DNA of 64,000 bases from Halorussus gelatinilyticus (GTDB lineage: Archaea > Halobacteriota > Halobacteria > Halobacteriales > Haladaptataceae), in assembly GCF_023238445.1 (NCBI RefSeq), contig NZ_CP096658.1, forward strand, positions 1-64,000, written 5' to 3'. Of the stretch, positions 24,623-51,162 are shown piece after piece. The notes under the pieces are model-generated. The model had not been told where the DNA came from and made no database searches. It saw only the letters and a list, made by a program, of their open reading frames with translations. Positions within the stretch are counted from its first letter, which is position 1, and every line of letters begins with the position of its first letter. A program made the translations under genes and the position numbers.

Positions 24623-25348
24623 TCAGTGCGACGACTGCCGGCGCTCGGTCTCGCGCTCGCTGCCGTGGCCGTGGCGACTGCCGTAGCGGCGGTCGCGCTC
24701 GCTGGTGCCGCGGTCGCCGCCGTGGCGGTGTTCGCGCTCGCCGCGAGTCTGGTCGCGGAACTCCGAGTCGCTCGGGTCGCTGTGGCGGTCGGAACTGCCG
24801 CGTTGGCCGGTCATCCGGCCCGAGATTCCTTCTTCGCGGTGGCTCCCGCGCTGGCTTCCGGTGCGCGAGGAACCGGTGTCGTGACTCTCGCGGCCGCTCC
24901 GTCGGCGGTTCTCCTTCCCGTAGTGTTCGCTGTCGGGCCGGTTCGACCGGTCGCTACCGGTCGGGTCGCGCTGGCCGTGGGTCTGGTCGCTCTCGCCGTG
25001 GGTCCGATTGCTCTCGCCGTGGGTTCGGTTGCTTCCCCACCGGTTCGCGTGCCCGTGGCCGGTCTCGTCGTGGTTCTTCTGACGCTCGCTCCGCGACTGT
25101 CGTCGCTCGTCGTGGGACGACCCGTGACCGGTCTCGCGTCCGGTGCGACGCTCGTGGTCCCGGTCGGCGGCGTTCCCGTAGTCGTTCGAGTGTCGCTCGT
25201 CGGCGGGATGGTCGCCGCTTCGTCGCTGTTGGTCGTCTCGGTCCCCCTCCAACTCCGTCCAACTCTCGTGACGAGTCTCTCGGCTCTCGTGCAGTCCGTC
25301 CTCGTTCGATGCTTCGCGCCGTCGCTGTTCTTTGTGCGGATTAGCCAT
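24623..25348 (-). CDS. Arg/His/Asp/Ser-rich disordered protein
   Basis: 241 residues with almost no hydrophobic residues. It is made of Arg, Glu, Asp, Ser, His, Gly and Asn. A short tandem repeat (NRTHGES, NRTHGES, DQTHGQ) spans about 107-126. Codon third positions are overwhelmingly C/G, which argues for real coding rather than an accident. The opposite strand is also open, but its product is an Ala/Val-only string, expected from antisense of Arg/Ser/Glu codons. No domain is recognised. The near-neutral, Arg-heavy make-up is unusual for a haloarchaeal cytosol. It may bind RNA or form condensates; that is a guess. Confidence 0.6.
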   Translation of the reverse strand: MANPHKEQRRREASNEDGLHESRETRHESWTELEGDRDDQQRRSGDHPADERHSNDYGNAADRDHERRTGRETGHGSSHDERRQSRSERQKNHDETGHGHANRWGSNRTHGESNRTHGESDQTHGQRDPTGSDRSNRPDSEHYGKENRRRSGRESHDTGSSRTGSQRGSHREEGISGRMTGQRGSSDRHSDPSDSEFRDQTRGEREHRHGGDRGTSERDRRYGSRHGHGSERETERRQSSH

Positions 25349-25545
25349 TGCGAAACCCCCGCGAGGAGGTTGGCCGAGAGTACCCTTAGCCGTGCTGGCT
25401 GACTATCAAAGGACGGCGACGTCGAACGACCGTCCGGCGGTTCGGTCGGGCGCGACTCCCCGACGACGGGATTGACGCCGGGCGTTCCCACCGGTTGGAA
25501 CTCCGCGACAAGTTTTTTCTATCAGCCACGCGCATGGTTCTATGT

Positions 25546-30636: not shown

Positions 30637-31047
30637 ATGCGCGAAAACACGCCCGACATCGGCGTCGAGGTACGGAACGTCGAACGAAAGCGCGGTCCCG
30701 ACGACGAGCAGTACGAGGAAGTCGAGGTCGCGGTCCCGGTGACGAACCCGCAGTCGGACTCGCGGGACTCCTACGTGGCCGACGGCGCGCTCGTCGGACA
30801 GATTCCGGTGACGAACGCCGACACGCCCTGCGCCGACGAGCGACTCGACGCGGCGGTCGTCACCGTCCTCGAAGAGCGCGTGACCGCCTATTACCCCCGC
30901 GATGGCGAGCGAGCGGTCCCGGCGCTGGTCTGGGAGGCCGCGACCGACGACTGGCGGTGCGAGTCGGTGGAGACGGACGGCGAATTCGACGTCGAGTCCG
31001 ACACGCGCGACGACGGCGAAGCGGTCCTCTGGGAGCGCGAAGAATAG
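30637..31047 (+). CDS. Conserved-looking haloarchaeal protein of unknown function
   Basis: 136 residues, strongly acidic and beta-rich, with no membrane segment. Two cysteines (about 67 and 108) are present but no motif. It sits 50 nt after acylphosphatase on the same strand and may share its transcript. I do not recognise the family. Codon usage is normal for the window. Confidence 0.7.
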   Translation: MRENTPDIGVEVRNVERKRGPDDEQYEEVEVAVPVTNPQSDSRDSYVADGALVGQIPVTNADTPCADERLDAAVVTVLEERVTAYYPRDGERAVPALVWEAATDDWRCESVETDGEFDVESDTRDDGEAVLWEREE

Positions 31048-31075: not shown

Positions 31076-32641
31076 TCAGTACCGGCCGTCCTGCCGGTCT
31101 CCGGGACGATACTGCCCCTCGTCGGCGCGCGACCGGTCCGCCTCGCTGTTCTCGACCTGTTGGCTGTAGGTCTCGCCCTGCGACAGGTCGGACCGTTCGT
31201 CCCGACCGCCGCGGTTCTGCCGACTACCGTACCGGCGGCCCGTCGGCTGGCGTTCCCCGCGCTCCGGTTCCCCGCGCTCTCGCTCCTCTCGCTGTTGGGG
31301 CGTCCCGGCCGGGCCGGTCGGAATCCGACTCGACCGACGCTCGGTGCGCTGGCGGGTCACTTCGAGTCGCTGGGAGTAGGACGGCCCGCCGCTCGGTTGC
31401 TGGTGGGGTTGCTTCGACTCCGTCCCCTGCGAAAGCTCGTGCCCGGTGAACTGTCGTGAGGTTCGCCCTTGCGACGGCTGCTCCCGAGATTGGTTCTGTG
31501 ACGACTGGTGTCGAGACTGGTGCTGCGGCGACTGGCGCGACTGCCCCCGAGACGTTCCCTGCTGGTGGGACTGCTGTGGCGACGGCCGTCGCTGTGGTGA
31601 CTCGGCGGGCGCGTCGCGTCGAGACTGCTGGTCCCGCTCGGATTGGGACTGCCGACCGGTTCGCCGGTCGCCCTGCGAGAACTGTCCGCCCTGTCGTTCC
31701 GACTGCGAGAACTGCTCGCCGCCGTGAGGCCCTCCAGCGTGGTTGGGCTGGTGGCGCGACTCGCCGCCGAACGAGAGCGTGTGACGACTCGTCCGCTGGC
31801 GCTCGGAATGGCGCGGGCGCTCGGTCCGGCGACCGCCAGTCTGTCCCTCTCCTGTCTGGGACCGACCGCCGGTCTCTCCGCGGCCCTGCGCCGGTTGCCG
31901 ACCGCTGGTCCGTCGCTGGTCGTCCGTCTGCCCTCGGTTCTCTGCGTACTGGTTGCTCTGTCCGTACTGGTGGCCTCGTTCGTACTGCTGGCCCTGTCCG
32001 TACTGCTGGCGGTCCTGCGTGCCCCGGTACTCCTGCGACGACTGCTGGCCCTGCGTCCGTCGCTGATTCCCAGTCGGTCGCTGGGACTGCCCCCGAGACG
32101 GCTGTCGAGGTTCAGGCCGGCGGTCGCTCGCGCTCCGTCTGCCGAACTGTCGGTGCGGACTGCCGGACTGTCGGTGCGAACTACCGGACTGCTGTCGCGG
32201 CCCGCCGTACTGCTCCGGCGACGACTGCTGGCCGGACGACTGCCGACTCCGGGACTGTTGAACGTCGGACTGCCCACCCGAGGGCTGCCGACGCCCGGTC
32301 TCGTCGCTCGTCTGCGAGAACTGCGTGGCGTCCCGCTCGCGAGGGATGTGGTTGCCCTGTTGGCGCGAGTCGCCGCCGAAGCGGATGCTGACCTGCCGCC
32401 CGCGAACGGACTGCTGTGGCTGGCCGTCCCGGCCCTCGGCGCTGTTGGCGGGGACGATGTTCTCGCCGCCCTGCATTCGGCGCTTCACGTCCTGTTCGAC
32501 CTGTTCGGGGCTTCGGTCGTCCCCTCGTCGGTCCTCCCCTCGCGGGTCGCCCTGTCGGGCGTCTCGTCGCTGGTCGCCGCGACCGCGCTCCTCGGTGTGT
32601 CGATACTCCCGGCCTCCCCGACGGTATGGATCGTACGACAT
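31076..32641 (-). CDS. Long Gln/Arg/Ser/Gly-rich prion-like disordered protein
   Basis: 521 residues, almost entirely low-complexity. The first 85 are Arg/Asp/Glu-rich with one possibly ordered helix (SPEQVEQDVKRRM, about 44-56). The rest is Gln, Arg, Ser and Gly with Tyr/Phe spaced through it. QYGQGQQY and HQYGQSNQY occur at about 213-232. A module FGG(D/E)SRxQxNH followed by QFSQ appears at about 88-110 and 291-313, with a third QFSQ at about 320. Third-position C/G is strong and CAG dominates Gln. A net basic or neutral disordered protein is rare in a salt-in archaeon. It resembles phase-separating RNA-binding tails, but that is inference. Confidence 0.65.
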   Translation of the reverse strand: MSYDPYRRGGREYRHTEERGRGDQRRDARQGDPRGEDRRGDDRSPEQVEQDVKRRMQGGENIVPANSAEGRDGQPQQSVRGRQVSIRFGGDSRQQGNHIPRERDATQFSQTSDETGRRQPSGGQSDVQQSRSRQSSGQQSSPEQYGGPRQQSGSSHRQSGSPHRQFGRRSASDRRPEPRQPSRGQSQRPTGNQRRTQGQQSSQEYRGTQDRQQYGQGQQYERGHQYGQSNQYAENRGQTDDQRRTSGRQPAQGRGETGGRSQTGEGQTGGRRTERPRHSERQRTSRHTLSFGGESRHQPNHAGGPHGGEQFSQSERQGGQFSQGDRRTGRQSQSERDQQSRRDAPAESPQRRPSPQQSHQQGTSRGQSRQSPQHQSRHQSSQNQSREQPSQGRTSRQFTGHELSQGTESKQPHQQPSGGPSYSQRLEVTRQRTERRSSRIPTGPAGTPQQREERERGEPERGERQPTGRRYGSRQNRGGRDERSDLSQGETYSQQVENSEADRSRADEGQYRPGDRQDGRY

Positions 32642-32957
32642 CAGTAAATCTCCCCGGCGATATCTGGGGCCGCGAGCGTCTTATCGGTGCTGGCTAGCCG
32701 CGCTCGAAACGGTCGGTGAAGACATCTCCGTACCCTCTTAAAGTGTACTTAGACACGTTTTAGAAGTGTATATATTTCTCTGGCGGCGGTCGTGTCACTT
32801 CGTGCAACCCCGAGTTCGGACCGCGAGCGAGTGCCGATTTCCGTCCGACCGCTCGGCTCTGCACTGCAACCGCCCGGCACCGCACTGCGACCGCGCCGCA
32901 CCGCAACCGCGCCCCGTTCCTCCCCGCGTCTCGCTGAGCGTCGCGAAGCGACGGCTC

Positions 32958-43408: not shown

Positions 43409-45472
43409 ATGACAGAATCACTGGAAGAACTCAGCCAGCGGTACCAGGAATCGATGCCCGAAGACCTCCGCGAGACCAAGTCCTTCGACTGGTATCTCGA
43501 CGAGGTGTACGAGGACCCCAAGATAGCCAGAAACGCCCACCAGCGGGTCGCCGACATGTTCGACTACTACGGCACCGAGTACGACGAGGAGGCCGGCGTG
43601 GTCGAGTACCTGCTCGCCTCGGAGGACCCGCTCCACGACGGGGAGAACACCTTCTACGGGCACGAGATTCACCGCGCCATCCACGAGTTCGTCAACAAGG
43701 TCAAGTCCGGTGCGCGGGGTCTCGGCCCGGAGAAGCGCATCAAGTTGCTCCTCGGCCCGGTCGGATCCGGCAAGTCCGACTTCGACCGACAGGTCCGGAC
43801 ATACTTCGAGGACTACACCCTCAGCGACGAGGGCCGGATGTACACCTACCGGTGGACGAACCTCTGCGACGTCATCCACGACCAAGACCCCGCCGACGAC
43901 ACGGTCCGGTCGCCGATGAATCAGGACCCCCTCGTCCTGCTCCCGGTGGACCAGCGCCAGCGCGTCATCGACGACCTGAACGAGAACTTAGACGCGCCCT
44001 ACACCATCCAGAACGAGCAGAGCCTCGACCCCGCGTCGGCGTTCTACATGGACGAGCTGCTGGCGTACTACGACGACGACATCAAGCTGGTGCTGGACAA
44101 CCACGTCGAAGTCGTCCGCCTGACCGCCGACGAGAACAAGCGCCAGGCCGTCGAGACCTTCGAACCGAAGGACAAGAAGAACCAGGACGAGACCGAGTTG
44201 ACGGGCGACGTCAACTACTCGAAAATCGCCATCTACGGCGAGTCCGACCCCAGAGCCTTCGACTACTCGGGGGCGTTCTGTAACGCAAACCGGGGTATCT
44301 TCAGTGGCGAGGAGCTACTCAAACTCCAGCGGGAGTTCCTCTACGACTTCCTGCACGCTACGCAGGAACAGACCATCAAACCGAAGAACAATCCGCGAAT
44401 CGACATCGACCAGGTCATCGTCGGCCGGACGAACATGCCCGAGTACCGGGACAAGAAGGGCGACGAGAAGATGGAAGCGTTCAACGACCGGACCAAGCGC
44501 ATCGACTTCCCGTACGTCCTCGAATACGACGAGGAGTCCCAGATTTACCGGAAGATGCTGTTCAACGCCGACGTGCCCGACGTCCACATCGAGCCACACA
44601 CGCTCGAAATGGCCGGACTCTTCGGCGTCCTGACCCGCATCGAGGAGCCCGACAGCGAGACCGTGGACCTGATGCAGAAGGTCAAGGCCTACAACGGCGA
44701 AATCAAGGACGGCGAGGACGTGGACGTGAAGAAGCTCCGCGAGGAGGGCGAGGAGTCCGCCGACATCGGCGAGGGCATGGAAGGCGTCTCCGCCCGGTTC
44801 ATCGGCGACGAAATCGCGGAGGCCATCATGAACTCGACCCACCGCGACAGGGGCTTCCTGAGTCCCCTCTCGGTGTTCAACCACTTCGAGGAGAACCTCG
44901 AAAATCACGGCTCCATCCCGGAGGAGAACTTCGAGACCTACTACCGCTACCTCGAAATGGTCCGCGAGGAGTACAAGGACCGCGCCATCGAGGACGTGCG
45001 CCACGCGCTCGCCTACGACATCGAGGAGATTCAGCGACAGGGCGAGAAGTACATGGACCACGTCATGGCGTACATCGACGACGACACGGTCGAGGACGAA
45101 CTCACGGGCCGCGAGCAGGAACCCGACGAGAGCTTCCTCCGGGCCGTCGAGGAGAAACTCGACATCCCGCGCGACCGGAAGGACGACTTCCGGCAGGAAG
45201 TGAGCAACTGGGTCTCCCGACGCGCCCGCGAGGGGTCGCCGTTCGACCCGCAGGACAACGACCGCCTGCGCCGCGCGCTGGAACGCAAGCTCTGGGAGGA
45301 CAAGAAACACAACATCAACTTCTCGGCGCTGGTCTCGTCCAACGAGATGGACGACGACGAGCAGAACGCGTGGATAGAGGCGCTCGTCGATCAGGGCTAC
45401 TCCCGCGAGGGCGCGAAGGAGGTGCTGGAGTTCGCCGGCGCAGAGGTCGCCCGCGCGGAGATGGAGGACTAA
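43409..45472 (+). CDS. prkA1: PrkA-family serine protein kinase, first copy
   Basis: 687 residues. An AAA-like PrkA N-domain carries Walker A GPVGSGKS (about 116-123), an NRG motif (294-296) before GIFSGEELLKL, TQEQ, and a NMPE sensor segment near 345. The C-terminal kinase-like domain follows from about 400. PrkA/YeaG kinases link with YeaH and YcgB in bacterial starvation and stress responses. The ATG at 43409 gives MTESLEELSQRYQ; the upstream frame is not conserved. It is the first gene of an operon with a second PrkA, DUF444 and SpoVR. Confidence 0.95.
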   Translation: MTESLEELSQRYQESMPEDLRETKSFDWYLDEVYEDPKIARNAHQRVADMFDYYGTEYDEEAGVVEYLLASEDPLHDGENTFYGHEIHRAIHEFVNKVKSGARGLGPEKRIKLLLGPVGSGKSDFDRQVRTYFEDYTLSDEGRMYTYRWTNLCDVIHDQDPADDTVRSPMNQDPLVLLPVDQRQRVIDDLNENLDAPYTIQNEQSLDPASAFYMDELLAYYDDDIKLVLDNHVEVVRLTADENKRQAVETFEPKDKKNQDETELTGDVNYSKIAIYGESDPRAFDYSGAFCNANRGIFSGEELLKLQREFLYDFLHATQEQTIKPKNNPRIDIDQVIVGRTNMPEYRDKKGDEKMEAFNDRTKRIDFPYVLEYDEESQIYRKMLFNADVPDVHIEPHTLEMAGLFGVLTRIEEPDSETVDLMQKVKAYNGEIKDGEDVDVKKLREEGEESADIGEGMEGVSARFIGDEIAEAIMNSTHRDRGFLSPLSVFNHFEENLENHGSIPEENFETYYRYLEMVREEYKDRAIEDVRHALAYDIEEIQRQGEKYMDHVMAYIDDDTVEDELTGREQEPDESFLRAVEEKLDIPRDRKDDFRQEVSNWVSRRAREGSPFDPQDNDRLRRALERKLWEDKKHNINFSALVSSNEMDDDEQNAWIEALVDQGYSREGAKEVLEFAGAEVARAEMED

Positions 45473-45474
45473 CC

Positions 45475-47832
45475 GTGGCGACCGGCCACGACGACCGGCG
45501 TCTCGCGGACCCCGAGGAGTCCTCCCGCCCCGAGGACGCGCCCGACGGCGGCGAGTTCATCGAGGCGGCCGACCGCGAACTCCGGGAGACCTACGAGGAA
45601 CCCAAGAGCCTCGCCGACTTCGTGGACGAGGCGTTCGAGAACCCGACCGTCGCGGCCCACGCCAGCAAGTACCTGCTCGAAGCCATCGAGTCGATGGGCA
45701 CCCGGACCGTCGTCGAGGAGGGCGACGAGAAGGAGCGGTACGTCTTCTTCGACGACCCGCACAACGACGGCGAACACGCCATATTGGGCAACACCGAGGT
45801 GCTCAACGCCTTCGTGGACGACCTGCGGTCCATCGCGGCCGAGCGCGGCAAGGCCGAGAAGATAATCTGGTTCGACGGCCCGACCGCGACCGGCAAATCG
45901 GAGTTGAAGCGGTGTCTCGTCAACGGGCTTCGGGAGTTCTCGAAGACCGAGGCGGGACGGCGGTACACCGTCGAGTGGAACATCGCCAGCGCGAGCGAGG
46001 CACGGAGCCTGAGCTACGGCGACGAGCGCGCGGTCGCCGACGAGGAGAACTGGTTCCCGAGTCCGGTGCAGGCCAATCCGCTGACGGTGTTCCCCGAGGA
46101 GGTCCGCGAGGACATCCTCGCGCGAATCAACGAGGGAGTCGAGGACCACATCGACCTGAAGGTCGATAGCGCGCTCGACCCCTTCAGCCGCGAGGCGTAC
46201 GACTACCTCGAAGAGCAGTACCGTCGGAACGGCGAGGACGACCTGTTCTCGGCCATCACCGACCCGAACCACCTCCGGGTGAAGAACTACGTCGTGGACG
46301 TCGGGAAGGGCATCGGCGTCCTCCACTCGGAGGACTCGGGGCCGCCGAAGGAGCGACTCGTCGGGTCGTGGATGCGCGGGATGTTGCAGGAGTTGGACTC
46401 GCGGGGCCGCAAGAATCCCCAAGCGTTCAGCTTCGACGGCGTCCTCTCGCAGGGCAACGGCCTGCTGACCATCGTGGAGGACGCCGCCCAGCACGCCGAT
46501 TTGCTCCAGAAGTTGCTCAACGTCCCCGACGAGAAGACGGTCAAGTTGGACAAGGGCATCCAGATGGACATCGACACGCAACTGCTCATCATCTCCAATC
46601 CCGACTTGGAGGCCCAATTGAACCAGCACGCCGACGCCGGCGGGGCCGACCCGCTGAAGGCGCTCAAGCGCAGGCTGGACCGGCGGCGGTTCAAGTACCT
46701 CACCAACCTGAGTCTGGAGGCCGAACTCATCCGCCGGGAGCTGACCAACGAGACCGACGTGTGGAAGGCCGAGAGCTACGACGAACTCGAGAACCTGATT
46801 CGGGAACCACTCTCGGTGCAGGTCCGGAACGACGAGAGCGGCGCGGGCGTCGGCGAGCGCGAACTCGCTCCGCACGCCATCGAGGCCGCCGCGCTCTACA
46901 GCGTCGTGACCCGACTCGACGGCGAGGACGTGCCCGCCGGACTCGACCTGGTGGACAAGGCGAAGCTGTTCGACAGGGGCTACCTGCTCGACGGCGACGA
47001 CCGCCTCGACGCGGAGGACTTCGACTTCGACGACGACGCAGACGACGGCGAGCAGGGGATTCCCGTGACCTACACCCGCGACGTCATCGCGGACCTGCTC
47101 AACGACGAGAGCGAGCGCGCCCACGCCGACTACCCGGTCGAGGAGGTCATCATGCCCCGCGACATCCTGAACGCGATGGCCGAGGACCTGACCGGCGCGC
47201 CAGTCTTCTCGACCGCCGAGCGCACCGAGTACGAGAACAGGCTGGTGCCGGTCAAGAACCACGTCTTCCAGAAGCAGGAGGAGGACGTGCTAGACGCCAT
47301 GATGGCCGACAAGCGCGTGGACGAGGAGACCGTCGAGGAGTACATCGAACACGTCTACGCGTGGGCGACCGACGAGCAGGTCGAGAACGACCGCGGCGAA
47401 CGCGTCGAACCCGACCCGCTGAAGATGAAGGTGTTCGAGACCGAGCATCTGGGTCGGTTCTCGCCCGAGAGCTACGACGGCGACCACTCGCCGACCCCGG
47501 CGGTCGAGGAGTTCCGGCGCAACAAGGTCATCACCGCGCTGAACCGCCACGCGTGGGAGAACCGCGACGAGGGCTTCGAGGCGGCCGACATCGACCCCAA
47601 GGAGATTCCCATCATCAAGACGGTGCTGGCGAACTACGACTGGGACGACGTGCGCCGGGTGTACGAGGACTTCGACCCGAACCAGTGGGCCGACCCGCCG
47701 GGCAACACCGAGACGGCCGCGGTGAAGGCCGAGACCATCGACAATCTGGTCGAGATGTTCGGCTACAGCGAGGCGTCGGCCGAGTTGACCAGCCAACACG
47801 TCATGAGTCAGGTGAGCTACAAATGGGACTGA
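45475..47832 (+). CDS. prkA2: PrkA-family protein, second and diverged copy
   Basis: 785 residues from GTG, 2 nt after the first prkA stop. Walker A GPTATGKS is at 135-142. The segment equivalent to NRG reads NG without Arg (328-329; [12 protein letters not shown]), and the downstream TQE is changed to VPDEKT. The sensor ISNPDLEAQ remains. The central region carries an acidic insert (DDDADDGE near 520). It may therefore work as a regulatory or partner subunit of the first copy, or as a kinase with different control. Haloarchaeal genomes often carry this two-kinase arrangement, as far as I recall. Confidence 0.92.
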
Positions 47833-49133
47833 GAGAGGACTTAGAACGGTATCGAGAGGTCGGCGAGGCCAAGCGGGAGGACCTCGCGGACTTCATCCAG
47901 TACGGCGACCTCGGCCAGAGCCTGCCCGACGAGATAAACATCCCCATCAAGATCGTGGACCTGCCGGAGTTCGCCTACGACCGGCGGGACAAGGGCGGCA
48001 TCGGGCAGGGCGAACCCGACGTGGGCGACCCGGTGGGCGAGCCACAGCCCCAACCCGGCGACGGCGACGAGGAGGGCGACCCCGGCGACGAGTCGGGCGA
48101 CCACGACTACTACGAGATGGACCCCGAGGAGTTCGCCGAGGAGTTGGACGACGAGTTGGGTCTCGACTTAGAGCCGAAGGGCAAGGAGGTCATCGAGGAG
48201 AAGGAGGGCGACTTCACCGACATGACCCGGACGGGTCCCGACAGCACCCTCGACTTCGAGCGGATGTTCAAGGAGGGGTTGAAGCGCAAACTGGCGATGG
48301 ACTTCGACCCCGACTTCCTCGAAGAGGTGCTGAAGATAGACGGCTGGGGTCCCGACCGGACGTTCTCGTGGGCGCGCGAGAACGCCATCAACGTCTCGAA
48401 ACACTGGCTCGAAGAGGCCTACCGCCGGATTCCGGACGACGAGAGGACGACCTACGACTCCATCGAGGAGGTCGAGGAGTCGGTCACTCGCCGGAGTACC
48501 GCCCAGAAGATAAAGGAAGAGGGCATCACGCACGTCCCCTTCCGGAAGGAGGACGAGCGCTACCGCTACCCCGAGATAATCGAGGAGCGCGAGAAGAACG
48601 TGGTCGTCGTCAACATCCGGGACGTCTCCGGGTCGATGCGCGAGAAGAAGCGCGAGTTGGTCGAGCGTACGTTCACGCCGCTGGACTGGTACCTGACCGG
48701 CAAGTACGACAACGCCGAGTTCGTCTACATCGCCCACGACGCCGAGGCGTGGGAGGTCGAGCGCGACGAGTTCTTCGGCATCCGGTCGGGCGGCGGGACG
48801 AAGATCTCGTCTGCGTACGAACTCGCCGCCGCGATTCTCGACGAGCGCTACCCGTGGAGCGACTGGAACCGCTACGTGTTCGCCGCCGGGGACAGCGAGA
48901 ACTCCCGGAACGACACCAGCGAGAACGTCATCCCGCTGATGGACGAGATTCCCGCGAACCTCCACGCCTACGTCGAGACCCAACCCGACGGGAAGGCCAT
49001 CAACGCGACCCACGCCGAGGAGGTAGACGACCACTTCGGCGAGTCGAACGAGGTGGCGGTCAGCTACGTCAACAGCCCCGAGGACGTGACCGACGCCATC
49101 TACGAAATCCTCAGCACGGAGGCCGAATCGTGA
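47823..49133 (+). CDS. yeaH: DUF444 (YeaH/YhbH-like) VWA-domain protein
   Basis: 436 residues. An acidic N-terminal region with Gly/Asp/Pro-rich linker (about 55-95) precedes a DUF444 core and a VWA-like fold with MIDAS DVSGS (267-271) in [28 protein letters not shown] at about 327 gives the second metal-loop Thr. YeaH partners the kinase YeaG in bacteria. The ATG at 47823 overlaps the prkA2 end by 10 nt, showing coupling. It has the correct family length. Confidence 0.93.
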
Positions 49134-49173
49134 GACGAGCGACCACGCCGACGCGCACCGCGGAGGCCAAACC

Positions 49174-51162
49174 ATGAGAGAGCGACCCCGAACGAAGAAG
49201 GCGGCGGAACCGTTACAGGAACCGGCCGAGGAGGCCCGCAATCTGGCCCACAAACTCGGCCTCGACCCCTACGACGTGAACTACTGGGTGGTCGATTACG
49301 ACGAGATGAACGAACTCATCGCGTACAACGGGTTCCAAGAGCGCTACCCCCACTGGCGGTGGGGCATGCAGTACGACCGCCAGCAGAAGCAGGGCCAGTA
49401 CACCGGCGGGAAGGCCTTCGAGATAGTCATCAACGACGACCCGTCTCACGCCTTCCTGCAGGAGTCGAACGCCGTCGCCGACCAGAAGGCGGTCATCACC
49501 CACGTCGAGGCCCACTCGGACTTCTTCGCCAAGAACCGGTGGTACCGGATGTTCGCCGACCAACTCGACGCCGCGGCGATGCTCGAACGCCACGCCCGGC
49601 GCATCGAGGAGTACATGTCCGACCCCGACATCGAGCGCGAGGCGGTCGAGCAGTGGATAGACAGCGTGCTGTGTCTCGAAGACAACATCGACCAGCACGA
49701 ACCGTTCAAGCGTCAGTTCGAGCGCCGAGACGACGCCGAGGACGACGACATCCCCGACGACGAGTTGGCCGAGAAACTGGACGAGATGGACCTCTCGGAC
49801 GAGGTGAAACGCCAGGTCTTCGACGAGGAGTGGATGGACGAGCAGGCCGACGCCGGCGAGTTGGACGAACCCGAGATGGACGTGCTGGCGTTCCTCCGGG
49901 ACCACGGCAAGGCCTACGACGAGGAGTCGCAGAAGGCCGAGGAGATGACCGAGTGGCAGAAGGAAATTCTGGAGATGCTCCGGGCCGAATCGTACTACTT
50001 CGCGGCCCAGAAGCTCACTAAAGTCATGAACGAGGGGTGGGCCGCCTACTGGGAGTCGATGATGATGGGCGAGGAGGCGTTCGCCGGGGACGACGAGTTC
50101 CTGAGCTACGCCGACCATCAGGCCCGCGTCCTCAACTCGCCGGGACTCAACCCCTACCAACTCGGCAAGGAGCTGTGGGAGTACATCGAGAACACCGAGA
50201 ACCGCCGGGAGGTCTGCCGGAAGCTCCTCCGGACCGAGGGCGTGACGTGGCGCAACTTCCACGACACCGTGGACTTCGAGGAGGTGCAGGACCTGCTCGC
50301 GCCCGACCCTCGAATCGATAGCATCGACCCCGAGAATCTGGACGAACTCGACGACCTCGCGCCCGAGAAGGTGGACGAGGAGATGCTGGAAGCCGCGAAG
50401 AACGGCGAGATAGACCTCGAAAAATACCCGTGGAAGGTCCTGACCTACCGGGGCCTCGCCGAGCGTCACTTCTCGCTGTGCAAGCGCCAGCACCGCGGGT
50501 TCCTCCGGTCGGTCTCCCAGCAGGACTTGGAGCAGTACGCGCGCTACATCGTGGACGACGCGCGCTACGGGTCGGTCGAGGAGGCCGTCGCGGACGTGGA
50601 CTACACCACCGGCTGGGAGAAGATGCGCGAGGTCCGGGCGAGCAACAACGACGTGACGTTCCTCGACAGCTTCCTGACTCAGGAGTTCGTCACGGACAAC
50701 CAGTACTTCACCTACGAGTTCAGCCAGACCACCGGCGACTACCGGGTCGCCAGCACCGACTACGAGGACGTGAAGAAGAAGCTGATGCTCCAGTTCACCA
50801 ACTTCGGCAAGCCGACCATCGCGGTGTACGACGGCAACTACAACAACCGCAACGAGTTGCTGCTCGGCCACCACTACAACGGCGTGATGCTGGACGTCGA
50901 ACAGGCCAAGCGGACCTTGGAACGCGTGTTCGACCTCTGGGGCCGGCCGGTGAACCTCAAGACCATCGTGAAGGAGGTGGACGACCGCGACGCCGAGATC
51001 GCTCGGCGGCGCGACCGCGAACCCGAACCCGAGGAGGTCGGCAAACTCCTGCGCTACGACGGCGAGCAGTTCACGATGGAGGACTTGGACTGGACCGAAG
51101 TCGAAGACATCGCGGCGACCGAAGTGGACTACGACACCAAGCCCGAGGACTGGCTGGCCTGA
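49174..51162 (+). CDS. spoVR: SpoVR family protein
   Basis: 662 residues, longer than the usual 450-520, with a charged insert near 170-265 (EDDDIPDDELAEKLDEM and DEQADAGELDEPEMD). Family hallmarks are NYWVVDYDEMNELIAYNGFQ, YPHWRWGMQYDRQQKQ, then ESYYFAAQKLTKVMNEGWAAYW, HYNGVMLD and a C-terminal nucleic-acid-like domain. SpoVR/YcgB function is not known; in E. coli ycgB responds to starvation with yeaGH. The ATG at 49174 lies 40 nt after the DUF444 stop. It ends the operon. Confidence 0.93.
   Translation: MRERPRTKKAAEPLQEPAEEARNLAHKLGLDPYDVNYWVVDYDEMNELIAYNGFQERYPHWRWGMQYDRQQKQGQYTGGKAFEIVINDDPSHAFLQESNAVADQKAVITHVEAHSDFFAKNRWYRMFADQLDAAAMLERHARRIEEYMSDPDIEREAVEQWIDSVLCLEDNIDQHEPFKRQFERRDDAEDDDIPDDELAEKLDEMDLSDEVKRQVFDEEWMDEQADAGELDEPEMDVLAFLRDHGKAYDEESQKAEEMTEWQKEILEMLRAESYYFAAQKLTKVMNEGWAAYWESMMMGEEAFAGDDEFLSYADHQARVLNSPGLNPYQLGKELWEYIENTENRREVCRKLLRTEGVTWRNFHDTVDFEEVQDLLAPDPRIDSIDPENLDELDDLAPEKVDEEMLEAAKNGEIDLEKYPWKVLTYRGLAERHFSLCKRQHRGFLRSVSQQDLEQYARYIVDDARYGSVEEAVADVDYTTGWEKMREVRASNNDVTFLDSFLTQEFVTDNQYFTYEFSQTTGDYRVASTDYEDVKKKLMLQFTNFGKPTIAVYDGNYNNRNELLLGHHYNGVMLDVEQAKRTLERVFDLWGRPVNLKTIVKEVDDRDAEIARRRDREPEPEEVGKLLRYDGEQFTMEDLDWTEVEDIAATEVDYDTKPEDWLA

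Follow-up and report, generated by a model that had tools for sequence, protein, structure and literature searches.

Why should a haloarchaeon encode, and keep, a long protein that has hardly any folded segment, is rich in arginine and glutamine, and holds few acidic residues? Salt-in archaea are expected to have acidic proteins. The open reading frame that raises this question, here called gene A, was picked out by a sequence-only reading of the window, i.e., the 64,000 nucleotides of Halorussus gelatinilyticus DNA analysed here, and both the frame itself and its description as disordered, Arg/Gln-rich and non-acidic were borne out. The predicted protein contains 17.7% R, 17.1% Q, 13.6% G and 12.5% S, with 12.7% E + D, 4.8% hydrophobic residues (LIVMFWC) and a calculated pI of 11.2, against medians of 6.7% R, 2.1% Q, 18% D + E and 27% hydrophobic residues for the 299 called genes in a 464-kb sample of the same chromosome, made up of the window and twenty pieces of 20 kb. 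Within that sample, a low-hydrophobic make-up of this type was shared by just one other convincing gene, gene B, which lies 6 kb away in the same window (Table 1). A single-sequence AlphaFold2 run, which has little power here and is uninformative beyond one helix at residues 45-57, returned a mean pLDDT of 40 for gene A. No signal peptide was evident in gene A, and neither gene A nor gene B matched any Pfam family, even at E values up to 10, or any NCBIfam family.

Gene A is a real protein-coding gene. Loss of the frame in close relatives had been named as grounds for rejecting the observation; in whole-genome searches the gene was intact, with its conserved motifs, in 10 of the 18 Halorussus genomes examined, always divergent from an Nnr/YjeF gene, and in the other eight tblastn turned up no remnant of it at the syntenic position. 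A profile search of 392 genomes of the class found no gene A in other genera. Variation within the frame is highest at third codon positions. In the N-terminal block, dN was 0.11-0.23 and dS 0.46-0.70 among the H. gelatinilyticus genome (G000) and three congeners (G008, G013 and G007), and dN falls far short of dS in most blocks; the linkers between them are fast-evolving. The antisense registers have dN equal to or above dS, or many stops, and a spurious frame or antisense gene at this place was rejected on the basis of this comparison and of the conservation. Codon bias had also been offered as a sign of coding: the frame is indeed genuine, as its conservation in 10 genomes with dN < dS attests, but the bias is weaker than was stated, with a GC3 of 0.79 against about 0.9 in ordinary genes.

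Two other sources of information were tried and set aside. Scanning of viral contigs with the A and B alignments gave no match, and a viral origin of either gene was discarded. The neighbours of gene A (Nnr/YjeF, MoaC-like, alcohol dehydrogenase and DNA glycosylase genes) are housekeeping-like and are present also where gene A is absent, and a function read from them was rejected. Tail to tail with gene A lies a gene for an acidic 136-aa protein without a Pfam match (30637-31047 (+)), which is found in six of the 10 genomes with gene A, in none of the eight congeners without it, and also in a genome of another genus (G022).

The ten orthologues, of 279-523 aa, consist of short aligned blocks (Table 1) separated by variable Q/S/G/R linkers, and in most of them the Q + N content of the linkers reaches 35-53% per 60 residues. 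The predicted helix, the sole secondary structure predicted, falls inside the conserved SPEQVEQDVKRRM block, and residues 43-66 are likely to be a docking motif. A variant of the block at residues 285-320 is repeated at residues 84-110. The sequence-only reading had likened the protein to the phase-separating RNA-binding tails of eukaryotes, and the likeness to prion-like domains of the FUS type holds insofar as gene A is disordered and rich in Q, G, S, R and Y. It does not extend further: gene A has no attached RNA-binding domain (no Pfam match, one short predicted helix), belongs to a salt-in archaeon, and is conserved mainly as short motifs. Aromatic residues, which had been seen as spaced Tyr/Phe in a Q/G/S context (QYGQGQQY), proved sparse, with 21 Y/F in 521 aa and 9-22 per orthologue, and neither their number nor their place is conserved, so that conserved, regularly spaced aromatics in such a context are lacking. 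Q-Y/F-G motifs number four in gene A of this species and zero to three in the orthologues, and the QYGQGQQY stretch is largely private to H. gelatinilyticus, which corrects the earlier description.

Table 1. Positions of genes A and B and of their conserved parts in the window.
Feature	Position	Strand	Basis
Gene A, disordered Arg/Gln/Gly/Ser-rich protein, 521 aa	31076..32641, stop codon included	(-)	Open reading frame; 10 Halorussus orthologues with conserved motifs; dN < dS
Conserved blocks of gene A: MSNDxYRxGGRE; SPEQVExxVKxRMQGxExxIP; RHSLxFGGESRHxxSHAGPPHGGEQFSxxER; RRPSPQQSHQQ; SKQPHQQP; SYSRRLExSRxxTE; RYGS			
Helix block of gene A, residues 43-66, RSPEQVEQDVKRRMQGGENIVPAN	32444..32515	(-)	Near-invariant columns; AlphaFold2 helix 45-57
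Conserved block of gene A, residues 285-320, SRHTLSFGGESRHQPNHAGGPHGGEQFSQSER	31682..31789	(-)	Alignment; dN < dS in most pairs
Shine-Dalgarno-like GGGGAG of gene A	32650..32655	(-)	Sequence; conserved in orthologues
Probable promoter element of gene A, TAGCCAGCACCGATAAG	32680..32696	(-)	38 bp before ATG; conserved in 10 orthologues
Gene B, disordered Arg/His/Ser/Gly/Glu-rich protein, 241 aa	24626..25348 (stop 24623-24625)	(-)	Orthologues
Shine-Dalgarno-like GGGGG of gene B	25356..25360	(-)	Sequence; conserved in orthologues
Probable promoter element of gene B, CAGCCAGCACGGCTAAG	25385..25401	(-)	36 bp before ATG

When the regions upstream of gene A were aligned, TAGCCAGCACSRATAAG stood out as conserved, some 37 bp ahead of the ATG. 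The window holds one other near match to the element of gene A, with three mismatches and at the same distance before gene B, where 0.03 would be expected by chance; the sequence common to the two, GCCAGCACNNNTAAG, lies 36-38 bp before the ATG in this genome. With at most one mismatch allowed, AGCCAGCACNNNTAAG has exactly two sites in the 3.67-Mb genome, one in front of A and one in front of B, and again exactly two in each of G008 and G013, each time at A and B, whereas a reversed control pattern gave 10-13 matches in each of these three genomes. A full match to the element was restricted to A and B among 3311 ATG-started ORFs of the 464-kb sample. Throughout Halorussus, A and B genes carry the element 35-38 bp before the ATG, two B copies (G016, G002) matching at 9 of 12 positions, and its consensus before A, B and the further gene C is [GC]CCAG[CT]AC-N3-TAAG(GAAA). 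The folds of the A and B leaders are weak, with at most one covarying pair, and a hairpin or thermometer in the leader was rejected on these grounds. The presence of one shared upstream element in front of unrelated disordered genes is strongly supported. Elsewhere in the window (43409-51159 (+)), a set of large genes resembles, by eye only, a PrkA kinase/YeaH/SpoVR cluster; it has no copy of the element in front.

At least 15 of the 18 Halorussus genomes have an orthologue of gene B, among them all 10 with gene A and several without it, and the C-terminal signature of gene B is strongly conserved. Beyond Halorussus, a second genus of the family has gene B (G022, with a frameshifted copy in G026), and its C-terminal motifs were traced in a more distant genus (G097, G356, G358, G169). 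In G005 (L208), which has no gene A, gene B has shrunk to 32 codons (MANSHKEQRRREAANEQGLHESHETDRRHSSH), its first residues being joined to the last RRHSSH, and this stub is still preceded by the element. Profile-profile comparison gave no significant homology of gene A to B or to C; only 12-residue motifs align, RRYGSR being the sole one that lines up between A and B. In several species, B and C contain runs of 9-11 histidines (L164/L108 in G013, L110 in G016, L111 in G014, L112 in G007, L290-L292 in G004 and G014), which occupy the place where gene B of other species has a HPADERHxNxYGDAADRD module, an apparent module exchange.

A sequence-only DNA model of 25 A and B leaders (R1) was run on the 392 genomes, and a second model (R2) was built by adding the newly found genes to the R1 members. 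Both match their training members by construction; the evidence lies in the genes outside the training set. Fifteen R1 sites reached E 0.05, across nine genomes of Halorussus and the related genus g3, against a chance expectation of about 0.5, and all 15 lie upstream of the start codon of A, B or a newly found family; in other genera many of the remaining sites are chance-like. R1 predicted orthologues of gene B in two genomes where protein searches had overlooked them, G006 and G009, and it found three new families, namely C (disordered and Q/G/H/R-rich) in G006 and G012, and D (small, acidic and probably folded) and E (small, acidic and disordered) in G012. With R2, gene C was found in the H. 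gelatinilyticus genome itself (G000:C1:3202656 (+); L270:3155-4297 (+)), where it encodes 380 aa with 26.6% Gln, 17.9% Gly and 9.7% His, is more Q/H/G-rich than gene A, and has the element 36 bp before its ATG. It is also the more prion-like of the two. Gene C is present in all but one of the 18 Halorussus genomes, as well as in the relatives G018, G019 and G026, with no match on plasmids. R2 gave three high-scoring sites in the H. gelatinilyticus genome, all before disordered proteins (A, B and C). The more important result is not gene A alone: it looks like one output of an apparent small dedicated regulon of disordered proteins in Halorussus.

In relatives, the element also precedes genes of other kinds. 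R2 marked further E genes, several D genes carry the element in relatives of H. gelatinilyticus, and a D paralogue in G012 was found by a simple pattern search; the D and E genes of the H. gelatinilyticus genome have weak or 10/12 matches only. Weak R2 sites (E 0.04-0.36) stand before genes for Dps, Mn-catalase and a PEBP protein, their identities confirmed with Pfam, in one species only (G010), and two Haladaptatus Mn-catalase genes have a degenerate element at 34 bp that falls below the model threshold. A hydrophilic protein of the H. gelatinilyticus genome (MADYDPDAGDEQQHARERQHERTESVEDIL.., L133:7769 (-)), with a 10/12 match 24 bp before its ATG, is a possible further member. In genus g3, a conserved, very basic peptide of 32 aa (MGKFRKAMFTWRRLPRRFRRRIVSKLRRVF..; G019, G020; L216, L223, L284, L301, L308), also picked up with R1, lies behind a similar element with a longer leader, and two Q-rich proteins (L299, L302) with a central, cysteine-poor, helical-looking domain (..LPNDMRTALHDFSRLKKSCEWAAEQIHGQ..) have a weak element in front.

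The model did not recover the element in front of Mn-catalase or D genes on plasmids of other haloarchaeal genera. The D family is also frequent on rhizobial plasmids. A Mn-catalase gene lies near TBP and TFB genes on a plasmid of Halostagnicola larsenii (L316), and on a plasmid of Halocatena salina (L312) a D gene sits beside a TFIIB-type gene and genes for trehalose-6-phosphate synthase, Mn-catalase and DUF892. Both appear to be stress islands equipped with general transcription factors of their own, but their Mn-catalase and D genes have no recognisable element, so the proximity of TBP and TFB is only a lead.

The distance between element and start codon bears on what kind of element it is. 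Genes with a GGGG Shine-Dalgarno sequence have it 33-38 bp before the ATG, while in genes without one it lies closer, at 24 or 27 bp in E genes and at 27 bp in the Mn-catalase gene. That the spacing falls into two classes, according to whether a Shine-Dalgarno sequence is present, fits a core promoter, the extra distance being what a short leader would add, and from this spacing the element is probably a non-canonical BRE/TATA core promoter rather than an operator. Transcription would then start about 24-27 bp after the TAAG, where the archaeal TATA box distance would put it, with GCCAGCAC taking the place of the BRE upstream of the TAAG. The E proteins (L293, L294, L305, L300, L281, L242, L135:2998) have the element 24-27 bp before the ATG and no Shine-Dalgarno sequence, as in leaderless transcripts; the E copy of the H. 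gelatinilyticus genome (L135) has a 10/12 match at 24 bp.

Haloarchaea possess multiple TBPs and TFBs, and it has been suggested that special pairs of them serve particular promoter classes (PMC2121645). An alternative TBP/TFB pair possibly reads the element. The nearest precedent compared here is TbpD/TfbA of Halobacterium, for which the idea is that distinct promoter classes are read by different TBP-TFB pairs (PMC2121645); non-canonical TATA boxes are known there (bop). However, TbpD and TfbA affect more than 10% of genes, whereas the A/B/C element marks very few.

Taken together, we put at roughly 60% the probability that gene A belongs to a small regulon whose disordered, very hydrophilic and non-acidic proteins share one rare promoter element and most likely act as stress or stationary-phase protectants. 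One type of element precedes several unlinked genes, A, B and C in the H. gelatinilyticus genome and A to E in relatives. The regulon in this genome would comprise A, B and C, all starting from the same rare element; their flexible Arg/Gln/His/Gly-rich chains would stay soluble in molar KCl, their short conserved motifs could contact clients or nucleic acid, and under drying, starvation or oxidation the proteins may co-assemble. We infer the stress induction and the protective function, to which the company of Dps, Mn-catalase and D points, at weak sites and in few genomes.

The closest protein class is that of the hydrophilins and LEA-like stress proteins such as yeast Hsp12 and Stf2; hydrophilins are stress-induced protectants (PMC4190154, PMC6054528). 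Gene A is likewise disordered and Gln-rich. Hydrophilins are defined by more than 6% Gly, a GRAVY below -1 and a mean hydrophilicity above 1 (PMC4190154). Glycine makes up 13.6% of A, 12.4% of B and 17.9% of C, and their GRAVY values are -2.12, -2.36 and -2.22, respectively. The Hopp-Woods mean exceeds 1 in B (1.09), but is 0.80 in A and 0.53 in C, and gene A is therefore not classed as a hydrophilin, although known hydrophilins themselves range from -0.3 to 1 on this measure and the definition has been called insufficient (PMC4190154). Gene A further differs in being Arg-rich instead of Lys/Glu-rich, in its basic pI, in lacking similarity to any Pfam family, and in having one dedicated promoter element. 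The products behind this promoter type also recall those of bacterial general-stress regulons (RpoS, SigB, EcfG), which include Dps, Mn-catalase and hydrophilic proteins. Here the geometry fits an archaeal core promoter, without a sigma factor, and the three strong sites in the H. gelatinilyticus genome all precede disordered proteins.

The foremost alternative concerns function, namely that A, B and C are scaffolds of RNA- or DNA-binding condensates, their Arg/Gln/Gly-rich chains phase-separating with nucleic acid in molar KCl, e.g., for nucleoid compaction or mRNA storage in resting cells, alongside Dps. The high Arg content and the RGG-like and RYGSR motifs would suit this role, as would the prion-like, Q-rich linkers of most orthologues and the still more Q/G-rich gene C. 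Against it, Pfam finds no nucleic-acid-binding domain in A or B, the aromatic residues are few and unconserved, and conservation resides in motifs rather than in composition. We consider a scaffold role unlikely; it is, however, compatible with a stress regulon and does not exclude one.

More doubtful still is a reading in which the element serves a dedicated repressor or activator as its operator, or acts as RNA within the leader, and in which A, B and C serve one specific structure, such as a surface layer, a pilus or a spore-coat-like shell, instead of general stress protection. Mn-catalases and Q/H/R-rich proteins also occur in bacterial spore coats, and the restriction of high-scoring sites in the H. 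gelatinilyticus genome to three would be in keeping with such a dedicated system. Against this, the two spacing classes fit a core promoter, the leader folds show little covariation, A, B and C lack signal peptides and membrane segments, and D, E and Dps genes carry the element in relatives. Finally, that gene A is a chance open frame in GC-rich DNA is hardly credible, because the overlapping ORFs of 306-334 aa in other frames and the lower GC3 than in ordinary genes are outweighed by a frame and motifs kept in 10 genomes, by purifying selection, and by a promoter element and Shine-Dalgarno sequence of its own.

A fuller version of the regulon reading is more tentative. It holds that haloarchaea of the Halorussus/Haladaptatus group have a stress regulon driven by a non-canonical core promoter specific to it and by an alternative TBP/TFB. 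The main products would be several unrelated, prion-like disordered proteins working at the molar KCl of the cytosol, with Dps and Mn-catalase beside them. If true, this would be the archaeal equivalent both of stress responses under sigma control and of anhydrobiosis proteins. This short element also renders both the regulon and its transcription factor findable, and the recovery of disordered orthologues that protein searches had overlooked shows that promoter-DNA matching can be used for disordered proteins that evolve fast.

In published surveys, most low-complexity regions of haloarchaea are acidic, at 34% on average (PMC6821194), and high occupancy by Q-rich regions is confined to eukaryotes (PMC11132505), which makes the A/B/C group unusual. 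Nature offers in these genes a test of which disordered sequences remain soluble and which condense in molar KCl: whole Arg/Gln/His-rich unfolded proteins are maintained by one lineage, apparently under one dedicated element.
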